A DNA stretch of 34,401 bases from a virus. Each line of letters begins with the position of its first letter. The first letter of the stretch is position 1. The notes below the pieces were generated by a model. The model had not been told where the DNA came from, did not search any database, and saw only the letters and a program-made list of their open reading frames with translations. The stretch spans positions 1 to 34,401 of the IMG/VR virus record IMGVR_UViG_3300021425_000096. One strand, given 5' to 3'. This document shows positions 4,714 to 34,186 of the stretch, piece after piece. A program made the position numbers and the translations under genes.

Positions 4714-4886
4714 GTAAGAAAATCTTTGTAGTAACATGGACTAACCATGTAGTCGGTCAAGTAGGACCAGAGGACATCAAGTGCTTTGAGGACTACAACA
4801 CTGCTGTTGCATTTGCTAAACTAATGGGCAGCAGATATAATTATGTAAATTTCTATGAGGAACGAGTAGATCAATGGGATTCTTAG
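4710..4886 (+). CDS. Small conserved hypothetical protein
   Basis: 58 aa, unknown function. Starts at ATG 4710 overlapping the gp43 stop (ATGA), rather than at an upstream in-frame ATG at 4659 that would overlap the polymerase by 55 nt. The sequence begins [18 protein letters not shown] and continues with an alpha-beta pattern including [16 protein letters not shown]. It has no membrane segment or known motif. It overlaps uvsX by 13 nt, so it is probably co-translated with the replication genes on each side. Confidence 0.7.
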
Positions 4887-5890
4887 ACACCGTAATTAAA
4901 GAAAGTGGAAACGAGTTTGCTGGTTTGGTTAGCGAAGGAATTGCTGCTGGCGACATTACTGATTATGTCGATACTGGCAGTTATATCTTTAACGCCCTTG
5001 TTAGTGGTTCGTTGTTTGGAGGTCTTCCTTCCAATAAGGTTACTGCCTTGGCAGGAGAATCAAGCACGGGCAAGACTTTCTTTGCTCTTTCTGTCGTTCG
5101 TAATTTCCTTGACGCTAATCCTACAGGTGGCGTCATTTATTTTGAGACTGAATCCGCCATTTCCAGAGACATGATTGAGTCTCGTGGTATCGACTCTAAG
5201 CGTATGATCATCATGCCTGTCGCTACTATTGAGGAGTTCAGGACACAAGCATGTAGGATCCTTGACAAGTATCTCAAGGAACCCAAAGAGGAGCGTGTGC
5301 CTATGATGTTTGTGCTAGACTCTCTTGGTATGCTCTCAACTACCAAGGAGATGGAGGACGTTGCTAACGACAAGCAGGTTCGTGACATGACCAAATCTCA
5401 GTTGATCAAGGGTGCCTTTCGTGTTTTGACGTTGAAACTCGGACAAGCACAAGTGCCTATGATTGTCACCAACCATACATATGATGTGATTGGTTCCTAT
5501 GTCCCTACAAAGGAGATGGGAGGTGGCACTGGTCTGAAGTATGCTGCTTCTACTATCATTTACCTTAGCAAGTCTAAGGAGCGTGATAGCAAGAAAGAAG
5601 TAGTTGGCAACATTATCAAATGCGAGGCGAAGAAGTCTCGTCTAACTATTGAGGGTTCTAAAGTTGCAACACGTCTATTTTTTGACGAGCGAGGTCTTGA
5701 CAAATACTACGGCTTACTGGAATTGGGTATCGAGCACGGAGTCTTCGGGAAGAACGGTAATCGGGTTCTTATTGGGGAATCTTCCGTTTATCCTTCTGCT
5801 GTACTTTCTGATCCCGAAAAATACTTCACCCCCGAAGTAATGGAAAAACTCGAAGAAGCAGCACGAAAAGAATTCTCCTATGGCAACTGA
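4874..5890 (+). CDS. uvsX: UvsX RecA-like recombinase
   Basis: 338 aa strand-exchange ATPase, the T4 counterpart of RecA, which forms filaments on single-stranded DNA for recombination-dependent replication and repair. Walker A GESSTGKT lies at residues 61-68, the catalytic glutamate in VIYFETE (E91), and Walker B in MMFVLDS (D149). A loop with [14 protein letters not shown] follows. The length is close to that of T4 UvsX (about 390 aa) but shorter. The start overlaps the preceding small gene, and the end overlaps gp41 by 11 nt. I saw no uvsY mediator gene in this window. Confidence 0.96.
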
Positions 5891-7268
5891 GCGCATTGAA
5901 CAAACTATCTTGCGTAACCTCCTTTTCACTGAGGAGTATTACCGCAAGGTAGTTCCCTTTCTAAAAGCAGATTATTTCCAAGAATATCATGAGAAAATTG
6001 TCTTTGAGGAGATTGCTGATTTCGCTTCTAAGTATGACAAGATTCCTACTAAAGAAGTGCTTACGATTAACCTCCAAAATCGTAATGATCTTACTGACGA
6101 CACGTACAAAGATTCGGTACAGACAGTATCCGACCTCTCAGACGAGTGGGTCGATTACGAATGGCTCCTTGACGCCACAGAAAAGTGGTGCCAAGACCGA
6201 GCAATCTACCTTGCCCTCATGCGGTCTATCAAGATCGCAGATGGAGGCGATAAGAAAATATCAAAGGATGCGATCCCAGGTATCTTACAAGAAGCCCTGG
6301 CAGTATCGTTCGACGAACACATAGGACATGATTACATTGAACAAGCAGAAGACCGTTATGATTTCTACCACAGAGTCGAAGAGAAAGTTCCCTTTGATCT
6401 CGAAAAGTTTAACTTCATTACCAAAGGTGGTCTCTCTAACAAGACTCTCAATGTCGCTCTTGCTGGTACAGGCGTCGGCAAATCTCTATTCATGTGCCAT
6501 TGCGCTGCTGCCGCGCTCACTCAGAACTACAACGTTCTCTACATTACATGTGAAATGGCAGAGGAAAAAATTGCTGAGCGAATTGACGCAAACCTTCTGA
6601 ATGTCAATGTCAAAGATATTGCAGAACTACCTGAAGTTCTCTTCACTAGCAAGGTTCAGGAGATCGCTAGGAAGACTCAGGGCAAACTTATTATCAAAGA
6701 ATACCCTACAGCGTCCGCTCACGCAGGACACTTCAAGGCACTCCTGAGCGATCTTTCTCTAAAGAAAGATTTTAAACCTGATATTATTTTTATCGACTAC
6801 TTAAACATCTGTGCTAGTGCGAGGTATAAAGGTGCGATTGTCAATTCTTATACGTATGTCAAAGCGATTGCTGAGGAGCTTCGGGGTCTTGCTGTGGAAT
6901 GTAATGTACCTATTGTCTCAGCTACTCAAACTACTCGCTCTGGTTACGGTAATAGTGACCCTGACCTTACCGATACTAGCGAGTCTTTTGGTCTTCCTGC
7001 CACTGCTGATTTTATGTTCGCTCTCATCAGCACTGATGAGCTTGAACAACAGGGTCGCCTCATGGTCAAACAACTTAAGAACAGGTACTCAGACCTTGTT
7101 ACCTCACGAAAATTCATGGTGGGAATTGACAGATCCAAAATGAAGCTGTATGATGTTGCGGACGATGCTTCCGCTATCAGCATCGACACAGAGGACGCAG
7201 GAGAACAACTCTCCCAGTTCGCTGAATCACAAAACCGTTTATCTAAATTTGCTGAGTGGAATGTATGA
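5880..7268 (+). CDS. 41: Replicative helicase gp41 (DnaB family)
   Basis: 462 aa hexameric 5'-3' helicase that works with the gp61 primase at the fork. An N-terminal helical domain (about 1-165) is followed by a RecA-type core: Walker A AGTGVGKS (195-202), the conserved glutamate in YITCEMAEE (E225), and Walker [11 protein letters not shown] (301-310), with [10 protein letters not shown] as the later sensor segment. The length matches T4 gp41 (475 aa). Overlaps uvsX by 11 nt and couples to the next gene through ATGA. A near-consensus sigma-70 promoter is embedded in its 3' end. Confidence 0.96.
7126..7154 (+). promoter_or_regulatory. Near-consensus sigma-70 promoter inside the 3' end of gp41
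   Basis: TTGACA (7126-7131), a 17-nt spacer, TATGAT (7149-7154): 11 of 12 consensus bases. Predicted start near 7161, about 100 nt before the MazG-like gene. It would let the downstream metabolic genes be expressed separately from the replication genes. Confidence 0.5.
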
Positions 7269-7666
7269 TTAATTTTAATAAGTATGAAGAGTTTGTTGCA
7301 GAAGTTACTTCTGACTGTTCAACGAACTTTGTTGATTTCGCTGATCGTATTGGCGAGTTGGATCGTCAGGGTGCCAATATTGAGCGTCTCCTTACTGCTG
7401 GCGTTGGGATTAATGCTGAAGGTGGTGAGTTCCTTGAGATCATTAAGAAGATGGTCTTCCAAGGTAAGCCTTGGAACGACGATAATCGAGAACATCTTAT
7501 TATTGAGTTGGGTGATGTCATGTGGTATGTGGCACAAGCTACTCAATCGCTAGGTGTATCGATGGAAGAAGTGCTTGACACTAATATCCGCAAATTGTCT
7601 AAGCGTTATCCTGAAGGAACCTTTGACTCTTACTATTCTGAAAACCGTAAAGCAGGTGACCGATGA
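7265..7666 (+). CDS. mazG: MazG-like nucleotide pyrophosphohydrolase
   Basis: 133 aa all-alpha NTP pyrophosphohydrolase type. The metal-binding pattern ExxE...ExxD is visible: EGGE (52-55) and ELGD (81-84). Such enzymes hydrolyse nucleoside triphosphates to monophosphates; in cyanophages MazG has been proposed to affect nucleotide turnover or (p)ppGpp, but its substrate cannot be read here. ATG 7265 overlaps the gp41 stop (ATGA); an upstream GTG at 7256 is less likely. Followed by an ATGA-coupled small gene. Confidence 0.85.
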   Translation: MINFNKYEEFVAEVTSDCSTNFVDFADRIGELDRQGANIERLLTAGVGINAEGGEFLEIIKKMVFQGKPWNDDNREHLIIELGDVMWYVAQATQSLGVSMEEVLDTNIRKLSKRYPEGTFDSYYSENRKAGDR

Positions 7667-7869
7667 AAACTCTTACACTAGAAGACTATCAGAAAGCAGG
7701 TGAAGAGTTTTGGCCTAAGTATTGGTACGTTGCCAAAGAACTTGGGGAGGATGCTAAACCAGAGCAAGTCCTCAAGGTCATGGAAGCAATTGGAGGAGTT
7801 GCACTCAAACTTGCACTCACGGACAAACTACCACCATTTGGATTTAATAAAAAGAAAGATGATGACTAA
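7663..7869 (+). CDS. Small hypothetical protein
   Basis: 68 aa, unknown. Starts MKTLTLEDYQKAGEEFWPKY and ends in a lysine/aspartate-rich tail (NKKKDDD). Mostly helical in appearance, without membrane segments, cysteines or catalytic motifs. ATG overlaps the upstream stop by 4 nt and its end overlaps the thioredoxin-like gene, so it is part of a tightly coupled run. It could be a partner of one of its neighbours; nothing in the sequence decides this. Confidence 0.72.
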   Translation: MKTLTLEDYQKAGEEFWPKYWYVAKELGEDAKPEQVLKVMEAIGGVALKLALTDKLPPFGFNKKKDDD

Positions 7870-8155
7870 ATTTATTTTATTCACCAAGGACTCTTGCGGT
7901 CCTTGTGGTCTTGTTAAAAGATACTTCAATGCTCTTAAAGATGACCGTACTAAACTCATTGAGGAAGTTCAACTTGAAGATGTAAGTGATGTACCTATCC
8001 CAGAAGAGAACCTTGCTCTTGCTAAAAAGTATGGTGTGACTGCTACTCCTGTTCTGATTATTGCTGATGAGAAAGGAGAACACTTAGAAACCTATGTTGG
8101 TGGTGTTCCTATCACTCAGAACATTCGTAAACTCTGGACCAAATACGGTGTATAG
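7862..8155 (+). CDS. Thioredoxin/glutaredoxin-like protein
   Basis: 97 aa. N-terminal FILFTKDSCGPCGLVKRYF carries the redox CxxC (C12-G-P-C15), and the later TATPVLIIADEKGEHLET provides the cis-proline strand of the thioredoxin fold. The CGPC sequence is the thioredoxin type. A likely role is reduction of the phage ribonucleotide reductase, whose subunits are encoded at 15829-19312, as with T4 NrdC; this is inference. Two adjacent ATGs (7859 and 7862) are equally possible, and both overlap the preceding stop. Confidence 0.88.
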   Translation: MTKFILFTKDSCGPCGLVKRYFNALKDDRTKLIEEVQLEDVSDVPIPEENLALAKKYGVTATPVLIIADEKGEHLETYVGGVPITQNIRKLWTKYGV

Positions 8156-8348
8156 TTTCTGGATCCACCTAGTAGCATTCTTTCAAGTGGTTGTAATGAA
8201 TTGCATTCAACCAGCTAACTGGAAGTATTGCTATCGGGTGGATCAGTGGTTAATCCCAGATCTCGTAGAAGGATATGAGATCTGGTCTGGAAAAAAGCAT
8301 CCTTACCAAAATGAAAAAGAATATCTTAAGGACCTCTCATCTAAATAA
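8148..8348 (+). CDS. Small hypothetical protein with hydrophobic N-terminus
   Basis: 66 aa if it starts at GTG 8148, which overlaps the thioredoxin-like stop; an internal ATG at 8196 would remove the hydrophobic stretch FWIHLVAFFQVVVM. That stretch is compatible with a membrane anchor or signal segment. The remainder (CYRVDQWLIPDLVEGYEIW, then KKHPYQNEKEYLKDL) is soluble-looking. Unknown function. Its 3' end forms the 5' arm of the terminator-like hairpin at 8332-8367, so the gene ends exactly where early transcription probably stops. Confidence 0.6.
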   Translation: MYSFWIHLVAFFQVVVMNCIQPANWKYCYRVDQWLIPDLVEGYEIWSGKKHPYQNEKEYLKDLSSK

Positions 8349-8367
8349 TTAGACGGGAGGTTTTTTT
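8332..8367 (+). terminator. Terminator hairpin containing a late promoter and the next Shine-Dalgarno
   Basis: ACCTCTCATCTA (8332-8343) pairs with TAGACGGGAGGT (8350-8361) with one wobble and one mismatch, around a 6-nt loop, and is followed by seven T (8361-8367). The 3' arm contains GGGAGG, which is also the Shine-Dalgarno for ATG 8369 at 8-nt spacing. Confidence 0.7.
8340..8347 (+). promoter_or_regulatory. Late promoter-like octamer (TCTAAATA)
   Basis: Same TCTAAATA/ACTAAATA form that precedes the late fibre genes. It sits in the 5' arm and loop of the hairpin, so RNA started about 6 nt downstream (near 8353) would lack the 5' arm and leave the Shine-Dalgarno free. Confidence 0.6.
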
Positions 8368-8368
8368 C

Positions 8369-9391
8369 ATGGCAGCACTAAGTACAACTCTAACGAGAGG
8401 TAGAGGACCTGCTTTTAATAAGTATGTGAGGGATAATCCCTCGTGGGCAGATCTAGTTTTAAAGGTAGAGGAAAAGATCACTGCTACTTTTTTTAAAGAG
8501 AGTAAGAAATCTACGCATGGTGTGCTGCCAGCGAGAACGGAAATAAAGTTGCTTTCTAATCAAGAGAGTTTGATAGGAAAACTTCGTGTTGCTCATGTGC
8601 AAGTAGGAACAAAGAAAGGATATATTGCACTCAAAGAAATTAGAAAACCAACTACCAATGTAATGGATGCTGAAGAAGCAGCAATCCGAGATTTGGAAAG
8701 ACTTATTGATGATATGGTAGCGGAGGTTGGAGCATTTAAAGTGTGTACGCCTGTTGGAAACTGGGAAAACATTAACGGTGTGGCAAATGTATCTGGTAAA
8801 GCAAGAGTTGCTGGTAGTGCTAGAGATTATAAAGCAGACTTCGCTCTAACCTCTAATGGTGTTCCTAAAATCTTTATCTCACACAAAAAAGTAGGTGGTC
8901 CTGAAGCATATCAGCAATATGGTGGGGTCACACAGGTAGCAGGAACTCCCACTAACAGAAATCTGATCTACATGAATAGTGAAGTACAGTCATTTTTGTC
9001 TGAAGCAGGTAGATATATTCAGAATGACAGATTGACTAGACCTGTATATAGATTTGTGGAGAGTGATGAGTTGATTAATCAATCTGTATATGGTCCTGAC
9101 TATGGTGGTGCTTTTGGTAATGATAACGTTCAATGTATTGGTCAGGGTAATCCTATTTTTACACCAAAGAGAGATGAAGAAGCATGTTTCTCTCTTGATT
9201 TCTCATCTCACGTCTCTTGGAATGGTGATCTTACATTCTTTAAGACCAGCAGATACCGAGCAGCATTTGCTGCCACTTACAGAGCTGGTCGTGGTTGGAC
9301 CATGCCAGACGGAACACGCTACAATGGTGCCAGAGCAGGCATCTATCCCATCGCTTTGGTTCAAAATAGAAGTGGAGCACTGGAAATCTGA
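8369..9391 (+). CDS. Conserved hypothetical protein, possible PD-(D/E)XK-like nuclease
   Basis: 340 aa, not confidently recognised. A central segment reads ARDYKADFALTSNGVPKIFI and continues SHKK; the spacing of D157 to K173 behind hydrophobic strands resembles a PD-(D/E)XK nuclease core in which the middle acidic residue is replaced, as in some families. E179 and a glutamine-rich YQQYGGVTQ follow. The N-terminal 120 residues are alpha-beta with many lysines. Strong GGGAGG Shine-Dalgarno, and the gene is linked by a 1-nt stop/start overlap (TGATG) to the ligase-like gene, suggesting a shared process. It could equally be a structural or regulatory protein. Confidence 0.7.
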   Translation: MAALSTTLTRGRGPAFNKYVRDNPSWADLVLKVEEKITATFFKESKKSTHGVLPARTEIKLLSNQESLIGKLRVAHVQVGTKKGYIALKEIRKPTTNVMDAEEAAIRDLERLIDDMVAEVGAFKVCTPVGNWENINGVANVSGKARVAGSARDYKADFALTSNGVPKIFISHKKVGGPEAYQQYGGVTQVAGTPTNRNLIYMNSEVQSFLSEAGRYIQNDRLTRPVYRFVESDELINQSVYGPDYGGAFGNDNVQCIGQGNPIFTPKRDEEACFSLDFSSHVSWNGDLTFFKTSRYRAAFAATYRAGRGWTMPDGTRYNGARAGIYPIALVQNRSGALEI

Positions 9392-10584
9392 TGGCAAACG
9401 TAACACAACTCAAGCACCTGGAACACCTGGAAGATGAGATGCTAAACTACGGCATTGAGGGGTGTATGGCAGCGGTCTCTTTTCTAAAAGAATTGAGGAA
9501 GATGCTTGGTCATCAGGAGAGCACTGGATTTATGCAAACCAAATGGGATGGTGCTCCATCTATTATTTGTGGCACACATCCAGAGACTGGTTTGTTTTTT
9601 GTTGGAACTAAATCTGTTTTTAACAAGACTGAACCTAAAGTTTGCTATAGCGAAGAAACTGTGGATGCTTGGTATGAAGGAGATCTAGCAGAAAAACTAA
9701 AATATTCTCTCAAGTATTTTAGTGAGTTGAATATTCAGGGGGTGGTACAGGGAGATTTACTATTCACAACTGATCTTAAAAAGGAAAAGGTTAATGGAGA
9801 AGAACTCTATACATTTCGACCAAACACTATTACTTATGGCATCCCTGTTAACCACGATATTGGTAAAAAGGCTGGCAGAGCAAAGATCGGAGTAGTATTT
9901 CATACTCATTATACTGGCGATGAACTTTCTACAATGCAAGCTCGTGCTGGTGCTAAAGTAAAAGGATCTAATGATGCTTTAGTAGTACAGAATGATACTC
10001 CCATGGATCGTGTTGGATTTTCTCGCACAGAAATGAGTAAGTTTGACAGATATATTTCCAAGATTGAACGCATGTGTCAGATCTGTGGTGACTTTCTCGA
10101 TGAACTAGTCGCTGTCAGTGGAACAACAGGAGACGCTAAGTTTCATATTTCTAGTTACCTAAAGCAGTTCTTCAATAATGAGATCAAGAATGCTAGAAGC
10201 ATTGCTAACGTTGATGAGAGCTTGTATGATCTAGCAAACTTCTATCATGATAAGATGAGTAAGGAACTTGCTAAGATCAAGACACCTGCAAACCTAGTCA
10301 AGAAGCGCAACCTCGTTTATGAGAGTGAAAACTATCTTGTAAATAATGTTTATAAGTTTAAGGCGATGCTTGCCTTGTATAAGGAACTACAAGCAGTGAA
10401 GCAAATGGTTATAGATAAACTAGACCACCTTGAAGAGTTCAGAACTTTCGTTCAGACGGAGAAAGGATATAAGGTCACAACTCCAGAAGGATATGTTCTT
10501 CACAAGGATGGCAGCATGATTAAGTTTGTCAATCGCTTGGAGTTTGCTTACAATAACTTCACCTTACAGAAGCAATGGCGTTAG
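9391..10584 (+). CDS. Ligase-like covalent nucleotidyltransferase homologue
   Basis: 397 aa. Sequence signatures of the ligase/capping superfamily occur in order: motif I TKWDGAP with candidate adenylated lysine K51; motif III-like VQGDLLF (119-125); motif IIIa-like KIGVVFHTHYTG (165-176); motif IV-like PEGYVLH (E366-G367); motif V-like MIKFV (K378). A lysine-rich helical block of about 160 residues separates IIIa from IV. This suggests an RNA or DNA end-joining or nucleotidyl-transfer activity, but the substrate is unknown and motif V is not the usual KxK. Coupled to its neighbours: 1-nt overlap upstream, 10-nt overlap with the NMNAT-like gene downstream. Not T4 gp30 by appearance. Confidence 0.72.
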   Translation: MANVTQLKHLEHLEDEMLNYGIEGCMAAVSFLKELRKMLGHQESTGFMQTKWDGAPSIICGTHPETGLFFVGTKSVFNKTEPKVCYSEETVDAWYEGDLAEKLKYSLKYFSELNIQGVVQGDLLFTTDLKKEKVNGEELYTFRPNTITYGIPVNHDIGKKAGRAKIGVVFHTHYTGDELSTMQARAGAKVKGSNDALVVQNDTPMDRVGFSRTEMSKFDRYISKIERMCQICGDFLDELVAVSGTTGDAKFHISSYLKQFFNNEIKNARSIANVDESLYDLANFYHDKMSKELAKIKTPANLVKKRNLVYESENYLVNNVYKFKAMLALYKELQAVKQMVIDKLDHLEEFRTFVQTEKGYKVTTPEGYVLHKDGSMIKFVNRLEFAYNNFTLQKQWR

Positions 10585-12603: not shown

Positions 12604-12611
12604 TATAAATA
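12604..12611 (+). promoter_or_regulatory. Late promoter TATAAATA
   Basis: Exact consensus 40 nt before ATG 12652. It falls in the 5' arm of an AT-rich imperfect hairpin (12605-12633) that ends 3 nt before the CTGGAG Shine-Dalgarno. Confidence 0.75.
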
Positions 12612-12651
12612 AATTTTAGGAAAATTAGTTTATCAACTGGAGTACGTATCC

Positions 12652-13377
12652 ATGTCCTTGTATAGTCGTGCTGAAACGCAAGCACAATCAATCAAAGTTC
12701 TAAACACAACTGAGAAGGCTTCCGTTAAGAAGTACGAATCTGACGGTACGCTCGTAGCACATGACGGTAACACCAATGCTACTGCTGGTGCTGAAGGTAA
12801 TGCTGCTATTCAAGCAAGAGCAGTTTTTATCGATGACACAGAAGCAACCCTCGCTGAGAATACTGAGCGTGGTCTAAATTCTCCTGGTTGGTGGCAATAT
12901 ACCACATACACAGATGCCGATGGCAATACTCGTCATAAGGCAGTTCAACTAGTATCAATGAAAGATGCTCCTGTCAATACTGCTGACTCTGACGATGATG
13001 TTGCTGCTGACGTTGCTGGCGTAATTGCTGTAACGGTACAACCTGTTAATGTAACTGGTGCAGCAGATCCTTACACTGCATCCCCTGCATTCTTTGTTAA
13101 TGCTACCGCAACTGGTGATGCTTCTGGTGCAACTGTCGAAGTTCAGTGGCAGCGTCAAACTGCAACTGGAACTCGCTGGACCAATGTTACAACTTCCCTT
13201 GATGGTGGTGTTTATTCCGTCAATACTGCAACTTCTGGTGGAGCAAGAGTTGGTAATCTAGTTATCACTGGTGCTGCTAAAGCAGATCTTGATGGTTATA
13301 AGTACCGTGCTAAGATCACTAACACCACTGGTTTTGAAGAAGTTATTTCTGACGCAGCAACACTAACTTTCGCATAA
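12652..13377 (+). CDS. Virion structural protein with Ig-like domain
   Basis: 241 aa. The first ~110 residues (MSLYSRAETQAQSIKVLN..., ending PGWWQYTTYTDADGN) form a compact domain I recognise from T4-like cyanophage virion proteins. Residues about 128-241 are a threonine/alanine-rich beta domain with the Ig-fold pattern VEVQWQRQ...W...LDGYKYRAKITN. Ig-like domains decorate phage heads and tails and can bind surfaces weakly (compare T4 Hoc). Starts after CTGGAG and an exact late promoter. Head decoration is the likeliest role; the specific assignment is uncertain. Confidence 0.8.
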   Translation: MSLYSRAETQAQSIKVLNTTEKASVKKYESDGTLVAHDGNTNATAGAEGNAAIQARAVFIDDTEATLAENTERGLNSPGWWQYTTYTDADGNTRHKAVQLVSMKDAPVNTADSDDDVAADVAGVIAVTVQPVNVTGAADPYTASPAFFVNATATGDASGATVEVQWQRQTATGTRWTNVTTSLDGGVYSVNTATSGGARVGNLVITGAAKADLDGYKYRAKITNTTGFEEVISDAATLTFA

Positions 13378-14421: not shown

Positions 14422-14856
14422 ATGGCATTTGGTCTTGGTAAATTAGCAGTTTTAGAAAGCAAACTGAGCATTTATGAAGATCTCTCCAAAGAGATGCTTG
14501 ACAAATTAGAAAAAGCAGTCGGGACTATCTCGGATAATAGCAACAAAATTGCTATTATCTTGGAGCGCCACGAAAACAGATTAGATGAAAGCGAGAGGGC
14601 AGATAAATTGATTATCGGTATGTTGGAAGAGATGAAAGTAAGGCATGAAAAGGATAACGAAACTATCCACAACAGAGTGTCTGTTCTCCAAAAGAAAGTA
14701 GAAGTTAATGCTAAGTTCGTGATCGGTGCTGGTGCTGTTCTTGCTACCCTTGTGGCAGTGTTACAAGTGGTTCCACCTATCGTCAAAGTCTTGACACCTC
14801 AGTCTGCTGCTGTTAGTATGACTGAAATGGTTATGACCCCTAGTGAGTTTTCTTGA
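14422..14856 (+). CDS. Coiled-coil membrane protein
   Basis: 144 aa. Residues about 8-95 look like a long amphipathic helix or coiled coil (LESKLSIYEDLSKEMLDKLE..., RVSVLQKKVEVN). They are followed by one hydrophobic segment, FVIGAGAVLATLVAVLQVVP (about 99-118), and a short polar tail. This topology occurs in phage lysis accessory and superinfection-type proteins and in unnamed cyanophage families, so no function is assigned. AGGA upstream of ATG 14422. Overlaps the gp61 start by 14 nt; a weak promoter lies in its 3' end. Confidence 0.75.
   Translation: MAFGLGKLAVLESKLSIYEDLSKEMLDKLEKAVGTISDNSNKIAIILERHENRLDESERADKLIIGMLEEMKVRHEKDNETIHNRVSVLQKKVEVNAKFVIGAGAVLATLVAVLQVVPPIVKVLTPQSAAVSMTEMVMTPSEFS
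14791..14819 (+). promoter_or_regulatory. Possible sigma-70 promoter before gp61
   Basis: TTGACA (14791-14796), 17-nt spacer, TAGTAT (14814-14819; 4 of 6). Located inside the preceding gene, 24 nt before the gp61 GTG. The -10 is weak. Confidence 0.3.
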
Positions 14857-15832
14857 CGTAAAGTATATCCAACTAGTATCCTCTCGCCTAGTTCTCTTCA
14901 GTCGTAAGAAGGCAGACCTGTATAACTTCAGGTGTCCTTACTGTGGCGATAGTCAGAAGAGAAAGAACAAGGCGAGGGGATATCTTTTTAAGATCAAGAA
15001 TGACTTTGTGTTCAAGTGCCACAACTGCGGCATGGGAAGAACACTTGCAAACTTCTTAAAGGATCAAGATACATTCCTTCATGACCAATATGTTATGGAG
15101 AAGTTTAAGGATGGAAAGACAGGCAAAGGCACAACCGTTCCAAATCCTAAGTTTGAGTTTAAGACTCCAAAATTTGTCAAGAAAGATACAGACCTTGAGA
15201 AGATTTCTTCGCTAAATATTTCTCACCCAGCGAGAGAATATCTTGAGAACCGAGGCATCAAAGATCTAGATTACTTCTACTATTGTCCTAAGTTTAAGGC
15301 TTGGACTAATTCCCAAAAGAAGATGTTTGACAACCTCAAGCAAGATAGTCCCAGAATTATTATTCCATTCCGAGACAAAGAAGGTAACCTCTTTGGATAC
15401 CAAGGCAGATCACTTGCCCCTAAGGCAAAACTAAGATACATCACGATCATGCTGGACGAGGAACAACCCAAGATCTTCGGACTGGATAGAGTAAAAGAAA
15501 ACAAACCTGTTTATATTGTAGAGGGACCATTTGATGCGACCTTCCTTGAAAACTCTGTTGCTATGGCTGGGTCCGACGCTGATGTTCGGACGTTTGGTTG
15601 GAGCAATTATATTTGGGTATTTGATAATGAACCACGCAACAGAGAGATTGTCGCCCGAATCTCCAAAGTCATTGACCGAGGAGATAAGGTAGTCATTTGG
15701 CCTAGAAAAATACAACAAAAGGATATTAACGATATGGTCCTTGCTGGACACGATGTACAAACTCTGGTAGAATCTAATGTCTATCAAGGTTTAGAAGCAA
15801 CCCTTAAATTTAACGACTGGAAGAAAGTATGA
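14843..15832 (+). CDS. 61: DNA primase gp61
   Basis: 329 aa, synthesises the RNA primers for lagging-strand synthesis with gp41. N-terminal zinc-binding domain: FRCPYCGDSQKRKNKARGYL with C31 and C34, then KCHNCGMG with C59 and C62. The catalytic TOPRIM-like region contains VYIVEGPFDATFL and then IWVFDNEPRN. The length agrees with T4 gp61 (342 aa). The start is GTG 14843, overlapping the upstream stop; no ATG is available before the zinc domain. It is separated from gp41 by about 7.5 kb of other genes here, and joins nrdA by ATGA. Confidence 0.93.
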   Translation: MSFLDVKYIQLVSSRLVLFSRKKADLYNFRCPYCGDSQKRKNKARGYLFKIKNDFVFKCHNCGMGRTLANFLKDQDTFLHDQYVMEKFKDGKTGKGTTVPNPKFEFKTPKFVKKDTDLEKISSLNISHPAREYLENRGIKDLDYFYYCPKFKAWTNSQKKMFDNLKQDSPRIIIPFRDKEGNLFGYQGRSLAPKAKLRYITIMLDEEQPKIFGLDRVKENKPVYIVEGPFDATFLENSVAMAGSDADVRTFGWSNYIWVFDNEPRNREIVARISKVIDRGDKVVIWPRKIQQKDINDMVLAGHDVQTLVESNVYQGLEATLKFNDWKKV

Positions 15833-18147
15833 CAAACGGGCACGGTATCAAAGTAAAGAAGCGTAGCGGCGCTGTAGAGGCGCTGAACCTCGATAAGATC
15901 CATAAGATGGTTGAGGAGGCTTGCGAGGGTCTAGGGAGCGGCGTGAGCGCCTCTCAGGTCGAAATGAACTCTGGTCTGCAGTTCTTCGATGGCATCGAGA
16001 CGAAGGACATTCAGGAGATTTTGGTGCGTTCTGCTAGTGATCTGATCAGTCTAGAAACTCCTAACTATCAGTTTGTCGCTGCTCGCCTGCTTCTCTTCGC
16101 AGTTCGTAAGCAAGTCTTTGGAGCAGGATGGGTCAATGGTCATCCATCTGTAGTGGATCATGCTTATAAGTGTGTGTCGAATGGTGTATATGATGGTGAG
16201 ATCTTGCGTAAATATAATGCAGAAGAGTGGGCAAAGATTGATAGTTGGATTGATCATGATCGTGACATGCTATTCACTTATGCAGGTTTACGTCAGGTCG
16301 TTGATAAGTACCTCGTGCAGGATAGATCCAGTGGCGAACTATATGAGACGCCACAATATATGTACATGATGATCGCGGTTACTCTTTTCCAAAACTACCC
16401 TACAGAAACACGTTTAGAGTATGTCAAACGATACTACAACGCAATCAGCAAGCACAAAATCAACATTCCCACACCTATCATGGCGGGAGTGCGAACTCCA
16501 CTTCGACAATTTGCTAGCTGTGTTCTTGTTGATGTTGATGACACCCTCGATTCTATCTTTAGCTCTGATATGGCTATTGGCAGATACGTTGCACAAAGGG
16601 CGGGCATCGGTATCAACGCAGGCAGAATCCGTGGCATCAACGCTAAAATCAGAGGCGGAGAAGTTCAGCACACAGGCGTTATCCCTTTCCTCAAAAAGTT
16701 TGAAGCAACTGTCAGATGCTGCACTCAAAATGGCATCAGAGGTGGATCAGCGACTGTCCATTTCCCAATCTGGCACCAAGAAATAGAAGACATTCTTGTT
16801 CTCAAGAACAACAAAGGAACAGAGGACAACCGCGTTCGCAAACTAGACTATTCAATTCAGACCAGCAAAATCTTCTATGAACGTTTCATCAACAACGAAG
16901 ACATCACCCTCTTCAGTCCGCACGACGTTCCTGGTTTGTATGATGCTTTTGGCACTCCTGGATTTGATGAGTTATATCGCTCTTATGAATCTAATCCAGA
17001 CATTCCAAAGCGATCTATCGGTGGTCAAGAGTTGGTTCTGGCACTCCTAAAGGAGAGAGCAGAGACTGGTCGAATCTATATCATGAACATCGACCACTGT
17101 AATGAGCACTCGTCATTTACTGACAAGGTAAATATGAGTAACCTCTGTCAGGAGATCACACTTCCAACTGATCCTCTTCAGCATATTGATGGTGATGGTG
17201 AGATTGCTCTGTGTATTCTCTCTGCTATCAATGTTGGTAAGATTAACAAACTGGATGATCTAGAGAACCTTTGTGATCTAGCAGTTCGTGGTCTTGAAGA
17301 GTTGATTGATTATCAGGACTATCCTGTTCGTGCTGCTGAAGTTAGCACATTGAACCGCCGTTCTCTTGGCATTGGTTATATCGGTCTAGCACACTACCTC
17401 GCCAAGCACGGAGAACACTACGATGACCCAGCAGCATGGAAACTCGTCCACGACTTGTCTGAATCTTTCCAGTTCTATCTACTCAAGTCAAGCAACACAG
17501 TCGCCAAGGAGAAAGGCAAGTGTGGTTATTTCGATCGAACGAAGTATGCAGACGGTATTCTCCCAATCGACACTTACAAACGTGACATCGATGAATTCTG
17601 TGGAGAAGAACTGAACCATGATTGGGAAAGTCTTAGAGAATCTATCAGAACCCACGGTCTTAGGCACTCAACACTGTCCGCACAAATGCCTTCAGAGAGC
17701 AGTTCCGTTGTGTCAAATGCCACAAACGGAATCGAGCCTCCTAGAGCATACATGTCCGTTAAAAAGTCAAAGAAGGGACCACTCAAGCAAATCGTTCCTC
17801 AGTATGGTAGTCTCAAGAATAACTACACTCTTCTCTGGGACATGAAGGACAACGATGGTTACATCAAAGTTGTCGCTGCGATGCAAAAGTTCTTTGACCA
17901 GGCGATCTCTGGCAACTGGAGTTATAATCCAGAGAATTATGACAACGCTGAGGTGCCAGTTTCTATTATGGCAGGTGACTTCCTAAAGACATACAAGTAT
18001 GGTTGGAAGACTTCTTATTATCAGAACACTTACGACCAGAAAGGAGAAGAACTTGAGCTGACTGCAGAGAAAAAAGAATCAATAGAAGATTTACTTAACC
18101 AAATTCTAGAAACAGAGGAAGAAGATTGTGACAGTTGCAAAATTTAG
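15829..18147 (+). CDS. nrdA: Ribonucleotide reductase class Ia, large subunit NrdA
   Basis: 772 aa, reduces ribonucleoside diphosphates to deoxy forms. An N-terminal ATP-cone-like region begins IKVKKRSGAVEALNLDKIH. Catalytic residues are all present: C231 (FASCVLVD) and C462 (ALCILSAINVG) as the disulfide pair; N438, C440 (thiyl radical) and E442 in SNLCQE; Y730-Y731 in KTSYYQNT for radical transfer; and a C-terminal CDSCKI tail (C767, C770) for re-reduction by thioredoxin. Numbering is almost that of the E. coli enzyme. Coupled to gp61 by ATGA; nrdB follows directly. Confidence 0.97.
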   Translation: MTNGHGIKVKKRSGAVEALNLDKIHKMVEEACEGLGSGVSASQVEMNSGLQFFDGIETKDIQEILVRSASDLISLETPNYQFVAARLLLFAVRKQVFGAGWVNGHPSVVDHAYKCVSNGVYDGEILRKYNAEEWAKIDSWIDHDRDMLFTYAGLRQVVDKYLVQDRSSGELYETPQYMYMMIAVTLFQNYPTETRLEYVKRYYNAISKHKINIPTPIMAGVRTPLRQFASCVLVDVDDTLDSIFSSDMAIGRYVAQRAGIGINAGRIRGINAKIRGGEVQHTGVIPFLKKFEATVRCCTQNGIRGGSATVHFPIWHQEIEDILVLKNNKGTEDNRVRKLDYSIQTSKIFYERFINNEDITLFSPHDVPGLYDAFGTPGFDELYRSYESNPDIPKRSIGGQELVLALLKERAETGRIYIMNIDHCNEHSSFTDKVNMSNLCQEITLPTDPLQHIDGDGEIALCILSAINVGKINKLDDLENLCDLAVRGLEELIDYQDYPVRAAEVSTLNRRSLGIGYIGLAHYLAKHGEHYDDPAAWKLVHDLSESFQFYLLKSSNTVAKEKGKCGYFDRTKYADGILPIDTYKRDIDEFCGEELNHDWESLRESIRTHGLRHSTLSAQMPSESSSVVSNATNGIEPPRAYMSVKKSKKGPLKQIVPQYGSLKNNYTLLWDMKDNDGYIKVVAAMQKFFDQAISGNWSYNPENYDNAEVPVSIMAGDFLKTYKYGWKTSYYQNTYDQKGEELELTAEKKESIEDLLNQILETEEEDCDSCKI

Positions 18148-18181
18148 AACGAGCGAACCAATGCGTAGTAAAGTAGAAGGG

Positions 18182-19312
18182 ATGACGGTGTTTAACACCA
18201 CCCAACTAGACAGTACAAAACAAAAGATGTTCTTTGGACCCCCTCTTGGGGTCCAACGCTATGACAAATTTAAGTATCCTGTGTTTGATAAACTGACACA
18301 GCAACAACTTGGTTATTTCTGGCGTCCAGAAGAAGTATCATTGCAGAAGGATCGTGCCGACTATCAAACACTTAATGCAGCACAAAAGCACATCTTCACT
18401 AGTAACCTTAAGTACCAAATCCTCTTGGATTCTGTACAAGGGCGTGGTCCTGGGATGGCTTTTATGCCTTACTGTTCATTACCTGAACTAGAAGGTGCCA
18501 TGAACATTTGGCAGACTATGGAGATGGTTCATAGTCGCTCCTATACCCACATCATCAAGAACGTGTATGCTGATCCCTCTGATGTCTTTGACAAGATCCT
18601 AGACGACGAAAAGATCCTTTCACGAGCAAAGTCTGTTACTCATGCTTATGATGACTTCCTACGTGCAGCACAAGAGTGGGGTGCTGGTAGAATGTGGGAA
18701 CACCAACTTGATGGCGTACCTCTAGCACAAGAAGAACTCCATGAACTCAAAAGAAAATTATATCGAGCGGTCGCTAATGTCTATATCCTTGAGGGAATTA
18801 GATTTTACGTCTCGTTTGCTTGCTCTTTCGCATTCGGGGAACTTAAACTTCTGGAAGGAAGTGCTAAAATTATCGGACTCATCGCAAGAGATGAATCCCA
18901 ACACATGACAATCACTCAAAACATTATGAATAAGTGGCGTGATGGTGATGATCCTGACATGGTTGAAATTGCAAAGGAGGAGCAAGATAATGTTTATGAA
19001 ATGTTCAAGCAATGTGTCGAAGAAGAAAAACTTTGGGCAGAATATTTGTTTAAGGATGGTTCTATTATTGGTCTTAACGACAAACTACTGGCAAAGTATG
19101 TTGAATGGACTGCCAATAGACGTTTGAAGTCTATTGGACTAAAAGCAATCTTTGATACTCCTGTCAGTAATAATCCTCTGCCTTGGACAGAGCACTGGTT
19201 GTCTTCTAAGGGTATGCAAGTAGCACCACAGGAGACAGAAGTAGAATCTTACCTTATCGGGAGCATTAAACAAGATGTTAAAAAGGATACGTTCGCTGGT
19301 TTCCAGCTATGA
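18182..19312 (+). CDS. nrdB: Ribonucleotide reductase class Ia, small subunit NrdB
   Basis: 376 aa, carries the di-iron centre and tyrosyl radical. Ligands are visible: D83, E114, H117, E204, E238, H241; the radical tyrosine is Y121 (in MEMVHSRSYTHII). I chose ATG 18182, which gives exactly the E. coli NrdB length; in-frame GTG 18128 and ATG 18161 would add up to 18 residues, and the GTG overlaps nrdA. The Shine-Dalgarno for 18182 is poor (GAAGGG directly abuts the ATG), so the longer form cannot be excluded. A 7-bp hairpin lies within the early codons. Confidence 0.94.
   Translation: MTVFNTTQLDSTKQKMFFGPPLGVQRYDKFKYPVFDKLTQQQLGYFWRPEEVSLQKDRADYQTLNAAQKHIFTSNLKYQILLDSVQGRGPGMAFMPYCSLPELEGAMNIWQTMEMVHSRSYTHIIKNVYADPSDVFDKILDDEKILSRAKSVTHAYDDFLRAAQEWGAGRMWEHQLDGVPLAQEELHELKRKLYRAVANVYILEGIRFYVSFACSFAFGELKLLEGSAKIIGLIARDESQHMTITQNIMNKWRDGDDPDMVEIAKEEQDNVYEMFKQCVEEEKLWAEYLFKDGSIIGLNDKLLAKYVEWTANRRLKSIGLKAIFDTPVSNNPLPWTEHWLSSKGMQVAPQETEVESYLIGSIKQDVKKDTFAGFQL
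18236..18254 (+). repeat. Hairpin inside the start of nrdB
   Basis: GGACCCC (18236-18242) and GGGGTCC (18248-18254) form a perfect 7-bp stem with a 5-nt loop, within codons for GPPLGV. No T-run follows, so it is not a terminator. It may be a by-product of the encoded peptide. Confidence 0.5.
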
Positions 19313-29937: not shown

Positions 29938-30224
29938 TGGCATTAATTACACTTTCGGAAGCACCTGATGCTCCTATTGATGGGTTTGATGAAACCAAGT
30001 TGCAACCAAACACTGCGACTGGTTTCATCTCAGCTGAGTTTTCTTCTATTGAAAGAGTAACTGGACCAGGAGAGGCACCTCAAAACTTCGACATCAATGA
30101 CTTAGATTTTTCTGGACCTATAAACAATCAACCATATCAGAAGCGTCGTCCTTCTCGTGGATTCTTAAGAGGTAGAAGACCATACTTTGGACTACTCTTC
30201 CCAAGAGGTTACTACAATAGATAA
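29937..30224 (+). CDS. Small virion-associated protein, cassette copy 1
   Basis: 95 aa. Begins MALITLSEAPDAPIDGFDET and ends GRRPYFGLLFPRGYYNR, an ending I recognise from small proteins in cyanophage fibre/structural regions. Start overlaps the stop of the 777-aa gene by one base, so the two proteins are probably made together. Paralog of the gene at 32594. It may be a fibre-associated chaperone or adaptor; that is inference. Confidence 0.78.
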   Translation: MALITLSEAPDAPIDGFDETKLQPNTATGFISAEFSSIERVTGPGEAPQNFDINDLDFSGPINNQPYQKRRPSRGFLRGRRPYFGLLFPRGYYNR

Positions 30225-30231
30225 CTAAATA
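30189..30231 (+). repeat. 43-bp exact direct repeat, copy 1 (gene end plus late promoter)
   Basis: Identical to 32825-32867. It covers the last codons of the small cassette gene, its stop, and the ACTAAATA octamer. Confidence 0.92.
30224..30231 (+). promoter_or_regulatory. Late promoter-like octamer (ACTAAATA)
   Basis: Lies 26 nt before ATG 30258 and forms the exact loop of a short AGATA/TATCT palindrome (30219-30236). Confidence 0.65.
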
Positions 30232-30257
30232 TATCTGAAAGGTAGTATCGTCTAGAA

Positions 30258-32594
30258 ATGGCAATTTTAAGATCAGTAGTGGATGTCAATAACGGCAACA
30301 CTGGATGGACAAAGGCAGATGTAATGGATGCATTGGAAACTGTCTTTGCTAACTTAGGAATGCATGGTGGTACTGCTAGAACTGGAGTTCCTCAATGGGT
30401 GGGATCGCCAACAGGCAGTCGTAGTTATAATACTGGTGGATTTGACACTGCTGCTAGAGATCCTGGACTTATTTCTTACAATACTCATTACATTGATGTA
30501 ATTAGTCAGGGGACTACTGCTTATAGAATGCTGAAAAAATATTATTTCATAAATTTCTATGGTCCCAATTCTGCTACTGATGAAATACTTTTTAATACTA
30601 GACATGAGTATCAGACTGGTGACCAAATTCATTGGGCTCCTGGAGAAACAGATGGTAATCTTAATATTAATGGTCTTTCTTTAGATACCGTTTATTATGT
30701 AATTCGAGTAAGTGATCAAGTTATTAAATTAGCGGCTAACGCTTCGGATGCTGCTAATGGTGTAGCAATTGATTTAACTCAGGGTCCATATACTGATAGT
30801 GCAGCAGTAACAAATATCCTATCATATTTTAGAGATATTGATGATGCACAATTTGATAATCGCACAATTAATATTGGAATAGGCGATGTTATTTACTTCA
30901 ATGTAAGTGATACTAGTGGTGGCACCTTTAATCTTTGTGGTGGAACTGATGACTATGATGCAAATAAACTCTTAAGTGATCCTGCTTGGAGAGATGTTGT
31001 TGGTTGGGCTGGTCTTGCTTCTTTACCAACTGGTAATAGTATCCCATCTGGAGCATGTACTTGGAACACATCTTATTGGTATCAAACAGAAGACGAAAAG
31101 AATCTCCCTGATGAACAAATTCCTTTAGCTCTCAGATCTAATACCGAAAAAATTCTTAGTAATTATGGACTAGTAAAATACATCTATGCTAGCAGCACAG
31201 AGTCTGCTATGAAAGGTGAGATTATAATTAATCCAGCACGACATACTAATAGTGGTGGAGTAGAACCATATTGGAAATATACTGTCCCCGCTAGTGGTGG
31301 TAGATCTGAATTAAAACTGAGAATTTACCGTGGTGTTGTGAATGGGAATGGTCACGTTGAACAAATTGTGATTAATAGTATAGGTAGTGGATGGGCAAAC
31401 GGAGAAGTATTTACAATTCCTGGTGATCAAATTGGTGGTTCTACCCCAGAGGATGATATTAGATTTGGAACCGCTACTCCAGAAACATTTAGTGGTGCGA
31501 ACGATGGAATATGTGAAGTGCATGTTACTAATCTTGGAGCTGGATCTAATTTTTATCAGAAGAGTGACTATGGACACTTTGGTGTTCTGAAAGTAGTCAA
31601 TGATGCTAATAAAAATTATGGCACATCCTACTATGGTTTTGGTACAGCAAACTATGCTGACTATGATTTGTATATCAACAGTGGTAATCACTGGGAGTGG
31701 ATGAATCGTTATGGACCTAAAACTACCGCTATCCAGGGCGGCACTGAGTATGGAAGATTTGGTGGTATTTTGGGATTGGATACAGGAGAAGCTAGAGATT
31801 ATATCAACAGATCTAGTGACGCACAATGGTCAAAAATTCGTATTGCTACTACAACAACACCAACTGCTTATCCAATGAGCATCAGAGTGTATAGAGCACA
31901 GGCACCACAAGATACTAACTTTGCTATCATTCAATTCTGTCAAACAATTAATGAAGTTATTATTCCTTACGGTACTTTTACCGTTCATAAAGGTGCTGGA
32001 TTTGGATCTAACCTATGGGATTTAGATGATGTATTCATCGGAACACTATCAACATATGAAGCTGGTGTTAGAACTGTTAATATAAATTATACAATCCCAG
32101 GATACTATAACTATGATGATATGCCAGGTGCTGAACCTGTAAATAATTTTACTAGAGCTAGAGAATCTAGTTATGGATTTGCTAGAGATCCTCTTTATAG
32201 TGCTCAATACACATCAAAGTATGCTTGTAATATTGATACAGATAATAATGAGAGTAGTGATAATCAAATCATGACTTACTATAGGAACAGCACCTATGAT
32301 AGAAATGGTGACTATGCTATGAGTGCTAATGCTGATTACTACAAACCAATTAAAGGTCTTCCTCTAGCACATAACATAGCTCCATGTCCTTATTATCTAC
32401 CTGATGATTTTGTTATGCTTCAGTTCTCTACCACACCAGGAGCAACTGTATTCAGACCAGGAGATACTGTAACAATTAGTCCTTCTGAAATATATGAAGT
32501 TATCTTGGCTGGATATCAAACCAGTCAGAATGGTCTTGACAATATTAATAATAATAGTTCTATTGGTATCCTGTTCCTCGCTCGTATAACCTGA
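30258..32594 (+). CDS. Virion structural/fibre protein, cassette copy 2
   Basis: 778 aa, paralog of the 777-aa protein: MAILRSVVDVNNGNTGWTKA, then DVMDALETVFANLG, NGLSLDTVYYVIRVSDQVIK, VTNLGAGSNFYQKSD, RVYRAQAPQDTNFAIIQFCQ, and CPYYLPDDFVMLQFSTTPG. The middle regions (for example residues 40-65 and 250-300) diverge, as expected for receptor-contacting parts. Driven by the ACTAAATA octamer at 30224. The stop overlaps the second small gene. Confidence 0.8.
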   Translation: MAILRSVVDVNNGNTGWTKADVMDALETVFANLGMHGGTARTGVPQWVGSPTGSRSYNTGGFDTAARDPGLISYNTHYIDVISQGTTAYRMLKKYYFINFYGPNSATDEILFNTRHEYQTGDQIHWAPGETDGNLNINGLSLDTVYYVIRVSDQVIKLAANASDAANGVAIDLTQGPYTDSAAVTNILSYFRDIDDAQFDNRTINIGIGDVIYFNVSDTSGGTFNLCGGTDDYDANKLLSDPAWRDVVGWAGLASLPTGNSIPSGACTWNTSYWYQTEDEKNLPDEQIPLALRSNTEKILSNYGLVKYIYASSTESAMKGEIIINPARHTNSGGVEPYWKYTVPASGGRSELKLRIYRGVVNGNGHVEQIVINSIGSGWANGEVFTIPGDQIGGSTPEDDIRFGTATPETFSGANDGICEVHVTNLGAGSNFYQKSDYGHFGVLKVVNDANKNYGTSYYGFGTANYADYDLYINSGNHWEWMNRYGPKTTAIQGGTEYGRFGGILGLDTGEARDYINRSSDAQWSKIRIATTTTPTAYPMSIRVYRAQAPQDTNFAIIQFCQTINEVIIPYGTFTVHKGAGFGSNLWDLDDVFIGTLSTYEAGVRTVNINYTIPGYYNYDDMPGAEPVNNFTRARESSYGFARDPLYSAQYTSKYACNIDTDNNESSDNQIMTYYRNSTYDRNGDYAMSANADYYKPIKGLPLAHNIAPCPYYLPDDFVMLQFSTTPGATVFRPGDTVTISPSEIYEVILAGYQTSQNGLDNINNNSSIGILFLARIT
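31881..31933 (+). repeat. 53-bp exact direct repeat, copy 2
   Basis: Identical to 29215-29267. Confidence 0.9.
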
Positions 32595-32860
32595 TGGCAA
32601 ACATAACACTATCCGAAACTCCAGACACAGTGGTGTCTGGATATGATCAGACAAGATTTCTTGCTAACACTGCTACTGCTGTTGTCACTCCAGATTTTTC
32701 TAGTGTAGAAAGAAGCACTACCAATGTATCTACGCCATTTAATTATGATATTGCTGACTTTGAATCTGCTAGTAGTGATATGAGGGCGCGTCGTGGATTC
32801 CTTACAGGAAGAAGACCTCACTTCGGACTACTCTTCCCAAGAGGTTACTACAATAGATAA
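32594..32860 (+). CDS. Small virion-associated protein, cassette copy 2
   Basis: 88 aa, MANITLSETPDTVVSGYDQT at the start and GRRPHFGLLFPRGYYNR at the end, matching copy 1 (29937) at both ends with a divergent centre. Overlaps the 778-aa gene stop by one base. Its last codons belong to a 43-bp stretch identical to copy 1. Confidence 0.78.
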   Translation: MANITLSETPDTVVSGYDQTRFLANTATAVVTPDFSSVERSTTNVSTPFNYDIADFESASSDMRARRGFLTGRRPHFGLLFPRGYYNR

Positions 32861-32867
32861 CTAAATA
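32825..32867 (+). repeat. 43-bp exact direct repeat, copy 2
   Basis: Identical to 30189-30231; spans the gene end and the next late promoter. Confidence 0.92.
32860..32867 (+). promoter_or_regulatory. Late promoter-like octamer (ACTAAATA)
   Basis: Lies 26 nt before ATG 32894, at exactly the same spacing as the copy before 30258. Confidence 0.65.
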
Positions 32868-32893
32868 CATCAGAAGAGTAGTAGCGTCTAAAA

Positions 32894-34186
32894 ATGGCAT
32901 TAGATTTCCCTGCGTCGCCAAATATTAATGATACATATACGTTTGGCGGCGTAACTTGGACTTATGATGGAACAACCTGGAAGGTTCTGGGTAGATTTCA
33001 ATTCACCTCGTCGGAAACTGATCCTGTTTTCACGGCATCTCCTGCATTTAATATTGTTAATCAAAATATTACTAACTGGAACGATGCATACGGTTGGGGA
33101 GACCATGCTACTGCTGGTTATTTAAGTTCTCTTGGAAGTATTGGTGGTCACACTGATGTTACAATAGCAACTCTTCAGGACGCACAACTACTCAGATATA
33201 GTGTTGCTAATGCTAGGTGGGAGAACTGGAGTCCAAACTATCTCACTTCATATACTGAGACAGACCCTGTATTTACTGCCTCTCCTGCTGCTGGAATTAA
33301 TGCTACTAATATTGCTAACTGGAACACAGCATATAACTGGGGTAATCACAGCACTCAGGGTTATCTAACAGCAGAAGCAGACACTCTTGATACTGTTCTC
33401 AGTAGAGGAGCAACTACTACTCAAGACATTACAACTACTGGCAAAGTATATTTCTCTAATAATTTTGCTAATTCGGTTGATCTTCCTAGCGCGACTACCT
33501 ATCATGGCATGTTCGCACACGTTCATGCTGAAGGTCATGGATACTTCGCACATGCTGGTGCTTGGACGCAACTATTAGACACTGGTTCTTCTCTATCTGA
33601 ACTTGCTGACGTTGTTACTACTACTCCTAATACAAATGATGTATTAACTTGGAATGGTTCTAATTGGGCACCTGCTGCTACTGGTGCAGGTGGAGGCGGT
33701 GGTGCTAATGTAACTATCTCTGATACTGCACCTGGACTACCTAACGCTGGTGATCTATGGTGGGAGAGTGACACTGGTCGCCTCAAGATTAGATATCAAG
33801 ACGTTGATAGCGCACAATGGGTTGATGCTTCGCCACCACTAGAACAAATTCCCGATCCTAATATTCCTTTTGTTGTTGGATGTATTAATATGAATGGAAA
33901 CTCTCCAACATGGACTGGTCCTGCTGCATGGACAGTTACCAAGTCTGGTGGAGATGGAAGTGCTCTTGGTGGTGATGTTTTCTATACATTAACATTCCCA
34001 TTTACATACAATGCAAGAACTGATTATATCGTTCATGCTTCTTATGATGGTACTGATTGGATCCCTGCTAATGGAGCACAAATCGGTATTCAGAGAAACA
34101 CTAGCAGCGTTGTATTCTGTGTCCGAAGATGGAATGAAGATCCATTGAACCTTGGTGACATCATGGTTACTATTACCAACCTCTAA
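32894..34186 (+). CDS. Tail-fibre-like virion protein
   Basis: 430 aa. N-terminal MALDFPASPNINDTYTFGGV with W-x-Y-D-G-x-x-W is a short tip or attachment module; the partial gene at 34214 starts the same way. Two 41-residue ETDPVF...NW...AYxWGxH repeats (from about residues 36 and 116) match those of the 993-aa protein, as does the module NAGDLWWESDTGRLKIRYQD continuing to QWVDASP. A glycine hinge (AGGGGGAN) precedes a C-terminal beta domain ending IMVTITNL, where the receptor-binding tip would be expected. Probably a second, shorter fibre. Confidence 0.82.
   Translation: MALDFPASPNINDTYTFGGVTWTYDGTTWKVLGRFQFTSSETDPVFTASPAFNIVNQNITNWNDAYGWGDHATAGYLSSLGSIGGHTDVTIATLQDAQLLRYSVANARWENWSPNYLTSYTETDPVFTASPAAGINATNIANWNTAYNWGNHSTQGYLTAEADTLDTVLSRGATTTQDITTTGKVYFSNNFANSVDLPSATTYHGMFAHVHAEGHGYFAHAGAWTQLLDTGSSLSELADVVTTTPNTNDVLTWNGSNWAPAATGAGGGGGANVTISDTAPGLPNAGDLWWESDTGRLKIRYQDVDSAQWVDASPPLEQIPDPNIPFVVGCINMNGNSPTWTGPAAWTVTKSGGDGSALGGDVFYTLTFPFTYNARTDYIVHASYDGTDWIPANGAQIGIQRNTSSVVFCVRRWNEDPLNLGDIMVTITNL

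Follow-up and report, generated by a model that had tools for sequence, protein, structure and literature searches.

The locus lies in a virus record of 34,401 bases (the window hereafter, meaning the whole stretch of DNA that was analysed), a fragment from the Kyanoviridae, that is, of a virus of marine cyanobacteria whose relatives are T4-like cyanophages. A cluster of replication genes ends there in a short gene of phrog_703, whose last codons and TAA stop codon (8346-8348) make up the 5' arm and loop of a hairpin (Table 1). Positions 8331-8368 read GACCTCTC-A-TCTAA-ATAA-TTAGA-C-GGGAGGTT-TTTTTC and are followed by the ATG of the next gene at 8369. Folding of 8325-8375 yielded -17.1 kcal/mol, compared with -7.2 +/- 2.05 kcal/mol for shuffled sequences (z -4.83), and none of 200 shuffles was as good. 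The original prediction described a plain 12-bp stem followed by seven T residues. The T-tract was confirmed, but the stem consists of eight pairs, an A.C mismatch and five pairs, and the first two T's of the tract are able to pair with it. As had also been predicted, the 3' arm contains the GGGAGG Shine-Dalgarno sequence of the gene at 8369, and the T-tract separates this sequence from the ATG.

Table 1. Features of the hairpin locus and its gene neighbourhood in the window.
Feature	Position	Strand	Remarks
Upstream replication cluster	4874..8155	+	uvsX-like, gp41-like helicase, mazG, phrog_2171, thioredoxin
uvsX-like gene	start 4874	+	upstream replication cluster
gp41-like helicase	start 5880	+	upstream replication cluster
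mazG	start 7256	+	upstream replication cluster
phrog_2171	start 7663	+	upstream replication cluster
Thioredoxin	start 7862	+	upstream replication cluster
phrog_703 gene	8148..8348	+	67 codons, GTG start; function unassigned; last gene of replication cluster
Hairpin stem-loop (predicted terminator stem)	8331..8362	+	32 letters; fold and conservation (~50 distinct sequences)
Outer helix, 8 bp	8331-8338/8355-8362	+	
A.C mismatch	8339/8354	+	
Inner helix, 5 bp	8340-8344/8349-8353	+	
T4-type late promoter TCTAAATA	8340..8347	+	inner 5' arm and loop; overlaps stop codon of upstream gene
Loop ATAA	8345-8348	+	
Predicted late transcription start (+1)	8353	+	promoter start 8341 + 12, Aeh1 rule
GGGAGG Shine-Dalgarno of gene 8369	8355..8360	+	within hairpin 3' arm; 8 nt from ATG
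T7 tract	8361..8367	+	predicted terminator U-tract; spacer from Shine-Dalgarno to ATG
Controlled gene, phrog_13937/27473	8369..9391	+	340 aa; function unassigned; member of highly variable slot
DUF6267 gene	9391..10584	+	next after variable slot; synteny with relatives
Head-protein gene	12652		part of island opened by hairpin

The late promoter word lies in the inner part of the 5' arm (8331-8344) and in the loop, where it had been expected. The late promoter of phage Aeh1 is CTAAATA starting at -12 (PMC1524935), and the cyanophage late promoter was reported as NATAAATA (PMC2984593); the word found here is the same and lies at the same distance to gene starts. Applied to the CTAAATA here, the -12 rule of Aeh1 places the predicted late start at 8353, in agreement with the position initially proposed. 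The late RNA would start ACGGGAGGUUUUUUUCAUG, and of the element it would contain no more than the 3' arm, T-tract and ATG. The box of T4-type late promoters, (T/C)TAAATA, was found on the gene strand and near gene starts: all 16 copies of [CA]TAAATA in the window are on the + strand (none on the - strand), and 10 of them lie 20-75 nt ahead of a gene start, compared with 19 of 116 copies of decoy words composed of the same bases in other orders. The relative S-RSM4 has annotated genes g55, g45 and g33, which lie outside the window. No sigma-70 site was listed in a scan of the + strand from 7155 to 9295. Elsewhere on this strand, three perfect TTGACA-17/18-TATAAT promoters of sigma-70 type are clustered (19852, 21028 and 21713). 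Near-identical leaders (CTCTTCCCAAGAGGTTACTACAATAGATAACTAAATA...) at 30195-30260 and 32831-32896 precede two tail-type genes (30258 and 32894).

RNA folding was employed to predict the accessibility of the ribosome site. For the window alone, the unpaired probability of the Shine-Dalgarno sequence was 0.00 in the long RNA and 0.40 in the predicted late RNA, and the medians over 42 distinct loci were approximately 0.001 for read-through RNA and 0.45 for late RNA. The predicted 5' end of the late RNA is just 2 nt away from the start of the Shine-Dalgarno sequence, which is predicted to be only about half unpaired in this RNA. The arrangement resembles the mask of T4 gene e in two respects: the late promoter (8340-8347) shares positions with the 5' side of the hairpin, and the Shine-Dalgarno sequence is predicted to be paired in the long RNA and to have lost its 5' arm in the late RNA.

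The hairpin is present at the orthologous position of S-RSM4, S-WAM2, S-H9-1, Syn1, S-RIM44, ACG-2014j, ACG-2014h and many IMG/VR contigs, and it is kept across the Kyanoviridae in about 50 distinct sequences (52 distinct 32-nt versions were read directly). In the family of equal-length hairpins 97% of the cells pair. Aligned covariation within this close family was no better than in shuffles, which is attributed to the promoter and the Shine-Dalgarno sequence fixing both arms. This uninformative measure was replaced by an exchange of arms over distant lineages and by the analysis of a second locus. Among 12 diverged lineages, the mean folding energy was -15.6 kcal/mol for own arms and -12.2 kcal/mol for swapped arms (1 of 2000 permutations, which ignore kinship among the 12 lineages), and the own 3' arm was the single best partner in only four of them. 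Unrelated hairpins replace the element at the same place in S-PRM1, L075, L089 and the L520-L552 group. These are ordinary terminators again, with the predicted +1 at or beyond part of the 5' arm, and they lack a Shine-Dalgarno sequence in the stem while keeping the terminator and late promoter. In Syn9, Syn10 and L061 CTAAATA is kept and both the terminator and the mask are missing, so neither of the two is essential. The lineages L035, L066, L082 and L547 have no terminator at this locus, yet CTAAATA lies within a palindrome there (e.g. GGATTATCTAAATAGTTTGGATGATCC), for which codon conservation in the upstream gene is part of the explanation.

The search for embedded late promoters was extended to the terminators of 11 phages and the window, comprising 10 cyanophage records (window included), T4 and Aeh1. 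Raw counts of motifs within terminators were unconvincing until they were normalised for word frequency. In the cyanophage records, 12 of 667 late words (1.80%) lay inside terminators with the +1 in the 3' half, compared with 0-0.59% for 14 decoy words, and none of the 162 late words of T4 and Aeh1 did. All 12 cases collapse to two orthologous loci, the one described above and the leader of the neck-protein gene 13; P-SSM2 and Syn9 have no embedded late word at either. The gene 13 leader hairpin (AAATCCCTTCTTCCTAAATAGGTAAGAAGGGATTTTTT in S-RSM4, AAGTCCCTGCCTGATAAATACAGGTAGGGACTTTTT in Syn1) is unrelated to the first locus and has the same geometry, the stem being 35 nt long and the +1 at offset 25. 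Its covariation is strong, with four pairs and 26 double-changed cells, a number of cells reached by 0 of 500 shuffles. That the palindrome arose by chance over a frequent AT-rich word would suit the mild over-representation of CTAAATA in the window (10 copies against 6.0 expected), but this explanation is extremely improbable: the fold (z -4.8), the covariation at the second locus and the decoy comparison all speak against it, and the deep conservation contradicts it.

Most lineages have no well-placed Shine-Dalgarno sequence in the gene 13 stem (AGGGG is present in the L465-L469 group). This observation identifies the terminator with an embedded late promoter as the shared core, apparently general to the family, and Shine-Dalgarno masking as what appears to be a layer added in some lineages, the window's included, that carry GGAGG in the 3' arm. 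In the gene 13 leader of L334, the hairpin AATAATCCC...GGGATTATT around CTAAATA is kept and the T-tract is lost; the hairpin there may thus matter without termination. For the locus of the window it is conceivable, though somewhat doubtful, that only the terminator and the late promoter count and that the G-rich 3' arm beside the T-tract is a Shine-Dalgarno sequence by accident. Masking would then not contribute to regulation, as almost all early RNA would stop before the ATG. The gene 13 locus and the replacement hairpins, which have both signals and no GGAGG in the stem, are consistent with this explanation. Yet a full GGAGG is rare in the window (found ahead of two candidate gene starts out of 46, shortly after CTAAATA each time) and is nevertheless kept in the 3' arm throughout the window's lineage, 6-13 nt from the ATG, and the same masking geometry is functional in T4 gene e (PMC3014915).

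A stable G+C-rich hairpin followed by a T-tract, as found here, is the arrangement of an intrinsic terminator. The terminator score is positive and modest (+5.7 or +11.2, depending on the stem cut), in contrast to -55 for the hairpin of T4 gene e and -59 for that of the Aeh1 HNH gene. These values bear on the converse possibility that the hairpin is a mask of gene e type only, with the T-tract as a weak, non-terminating spacer and uniform read-through. Precedents for it are T4 genes e, soc and 49, I-TevI and Aeh1 mobE, which act by masking (PMC3014915, PMC2988022). It is nevertheless quite improbable in view of the opposite signs of the scores, of the T-tract retained in nearly all hairpin-bearing sequences read, and of the replacement hairpins, which are terminators without a Shine-Dalgarno sequence. 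Other combinations of terminators and late promoter words were also seen. At 1219-1254 of the window, CTAAATA precedes a terminator hairpin that begins with the predicted late +1, so a late RNA would start with a complete hairpin; S-RSM4, S-WAM2 and S-H9-1 have kept this geometry, and in ACG-2014h it is displaced by 1 nt. Ahead of the head-protein gene, the relatives L092, L222 and L256 have a terminator directly before TATAAATA, whereas the window retains TATAAATA without the terminator (12604-12652).

The gene that follows the hairpin varies widely among phages, while the hairpin, the upstream gene and the downstream DUF6267 gene are constant. The proteins encoded downstream at 209 loci form 10 clusters, six of which, unrelated to one another, are preceded by one identical 30-nt hairpin. 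As identical hairpins stand before up to six unrelated proteins, the element is probably also a gene-swap junction. The hairpin could even have been retained chiefly because it provides a homology junction at which genes are exchanged, as a late analogue of promoter-stem-loop cassettes, and regulation would come along because each swapped gene inherits the promoter. Besides the identical hairpins, blastn matches to relatives that end at the hairpin or ATG, and the re-formation of hairpins with different sequences in other lineages, argue for this explanation. It is unlikely nonetheless, as the fixed gene 13 carries such an element too and is not swapped, and exchange is thus not the general reason. 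The protein encoded at 8369 had no match in a Pfam search and no sequence relative in the PDB, and its AlphaFold model (pLDDT 33) was too poor for use. It shares with its cluster the pattern E...KAD...SHK...Q(Y/W)GG, which resembles PD-(D/E)XK nucleases without a family or structure match; its KAD...SHK...QYGG hints at such a nuclease as a lead only.

The hairpin had been placed at the border between replication genes and late genes, and this part of the original prediction did not hold: DNA primase (14843), nrdA (15829) and nrdB (18128) are encoded downstream of it, spanning 14843-19309. The hairpin therefore opens a small island of variable and structural genes (the variable gene, the DUF6267 gene and the head-protein gene) inside a replication region. 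The idea of terminator, late promoter and Shine-Dalgarno mask united in one hairpin is borne out by anatomy and conservation, except that masking does not belong to the shared core. The hairpin is most probably (a probability of about 0.7) an intrinsic terminator with an embedded late promoter, combined in the window's lineage with a mask of gene e type. From the hairpin, T-tract, promoter word, Shine-Dalgarno position, conservation and sister-locus covariation, we infer termination, a start at 8353, translational masking and their timing as follows. Early or middle RNA arriving from the uvsX-41-mazG-thioredoxin cluster would fold the hairpin and mostly terminate in the T-tract before the ATG at 8369, and any read-through RNA would have its GGGAGG locked in the stem and be translated poorly. 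A late sigma factor of gp55 type would start transcription at approximately 8353, past the 5' arm, so that the new RNA would escape both terminator and mask, being able neither to form the former nor to conceal the ribosome site. One stretch would thus switch incoming transcription off and late transcription on.

These predictions are exact to the base, with early RNA 3' ends expected at 8361-8368 and a late 5' end at 8353. T4-like cyanophages are without MotA/AsiA middle control (PMC2984593), and if the proposed mechanism is true, about 40 bp would separate replication-phase and late expression of neighbours on the same strand. We tentatively propose a class of late-promoter-in-terminator cassettes in the Kyanoviridae, of which the uvsX-side member may also be the late counterpart of the PeSL (promoter early stem-loop) and a fixed swap junction. 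In such a cassette the terminator would insulate the gene from replication-phase transcription and disarm itself late, with the +1 past the 5' arm, and genes swapped into the uvsX-side junction would gain early-off/late-on control at once. At this highly variable slot, the hairpin would tie regulation and gene exchange together.

The PeSL is reportedly a composite promoter-terminator element with an early promoter (Arbiol 2010, Comeau 2014). PeSL cassettes exist in T4-like phages and the neighbouring genes are swapped there (PMC4503421). The cyanophage hairpin likewise appears as a composite promoter-terminator element where neighbouring genes are swapped (up to six unrelated clusters are joined to it); unlike in the PeSL, whose early (sigma-70) promoter lies beside the stem-loop, the promoter is of late type and lies inside the stem. 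In T4 gene e, the early RNA is proven to hide the ribosome site and the late RNA, which is without the 5' arm, to be translated (PMC3014915); the same masking is described for I-TevI and Aeh1 mobE (PMC2988022). As a positive control, the scan recovered the gene e hairpin ACCTTCTATAAATACTTAGGAGGT, which was recognised from the lysozyme that the gene encodes; in T4 and Aeh1, such hairpins have the masking half and no T-tract after them. No description of a late promoter embedded in a terminator was found in the searchable literature, and this combination is provisionally regarded as new. T4 e, soc, 49, I-TevI and segB and Aeh1 mobE share with the cyanophage element a late promoter in the 5' portion of a hairpin by which the Shine-Dalgarno sequence is sequestered. 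The element differs from T4 gene e and the HNH gene of Aeh1, which have no T-tract after the stem, in adding a predicted intrinsic terminator and in occurring also without masking, before gene 13.
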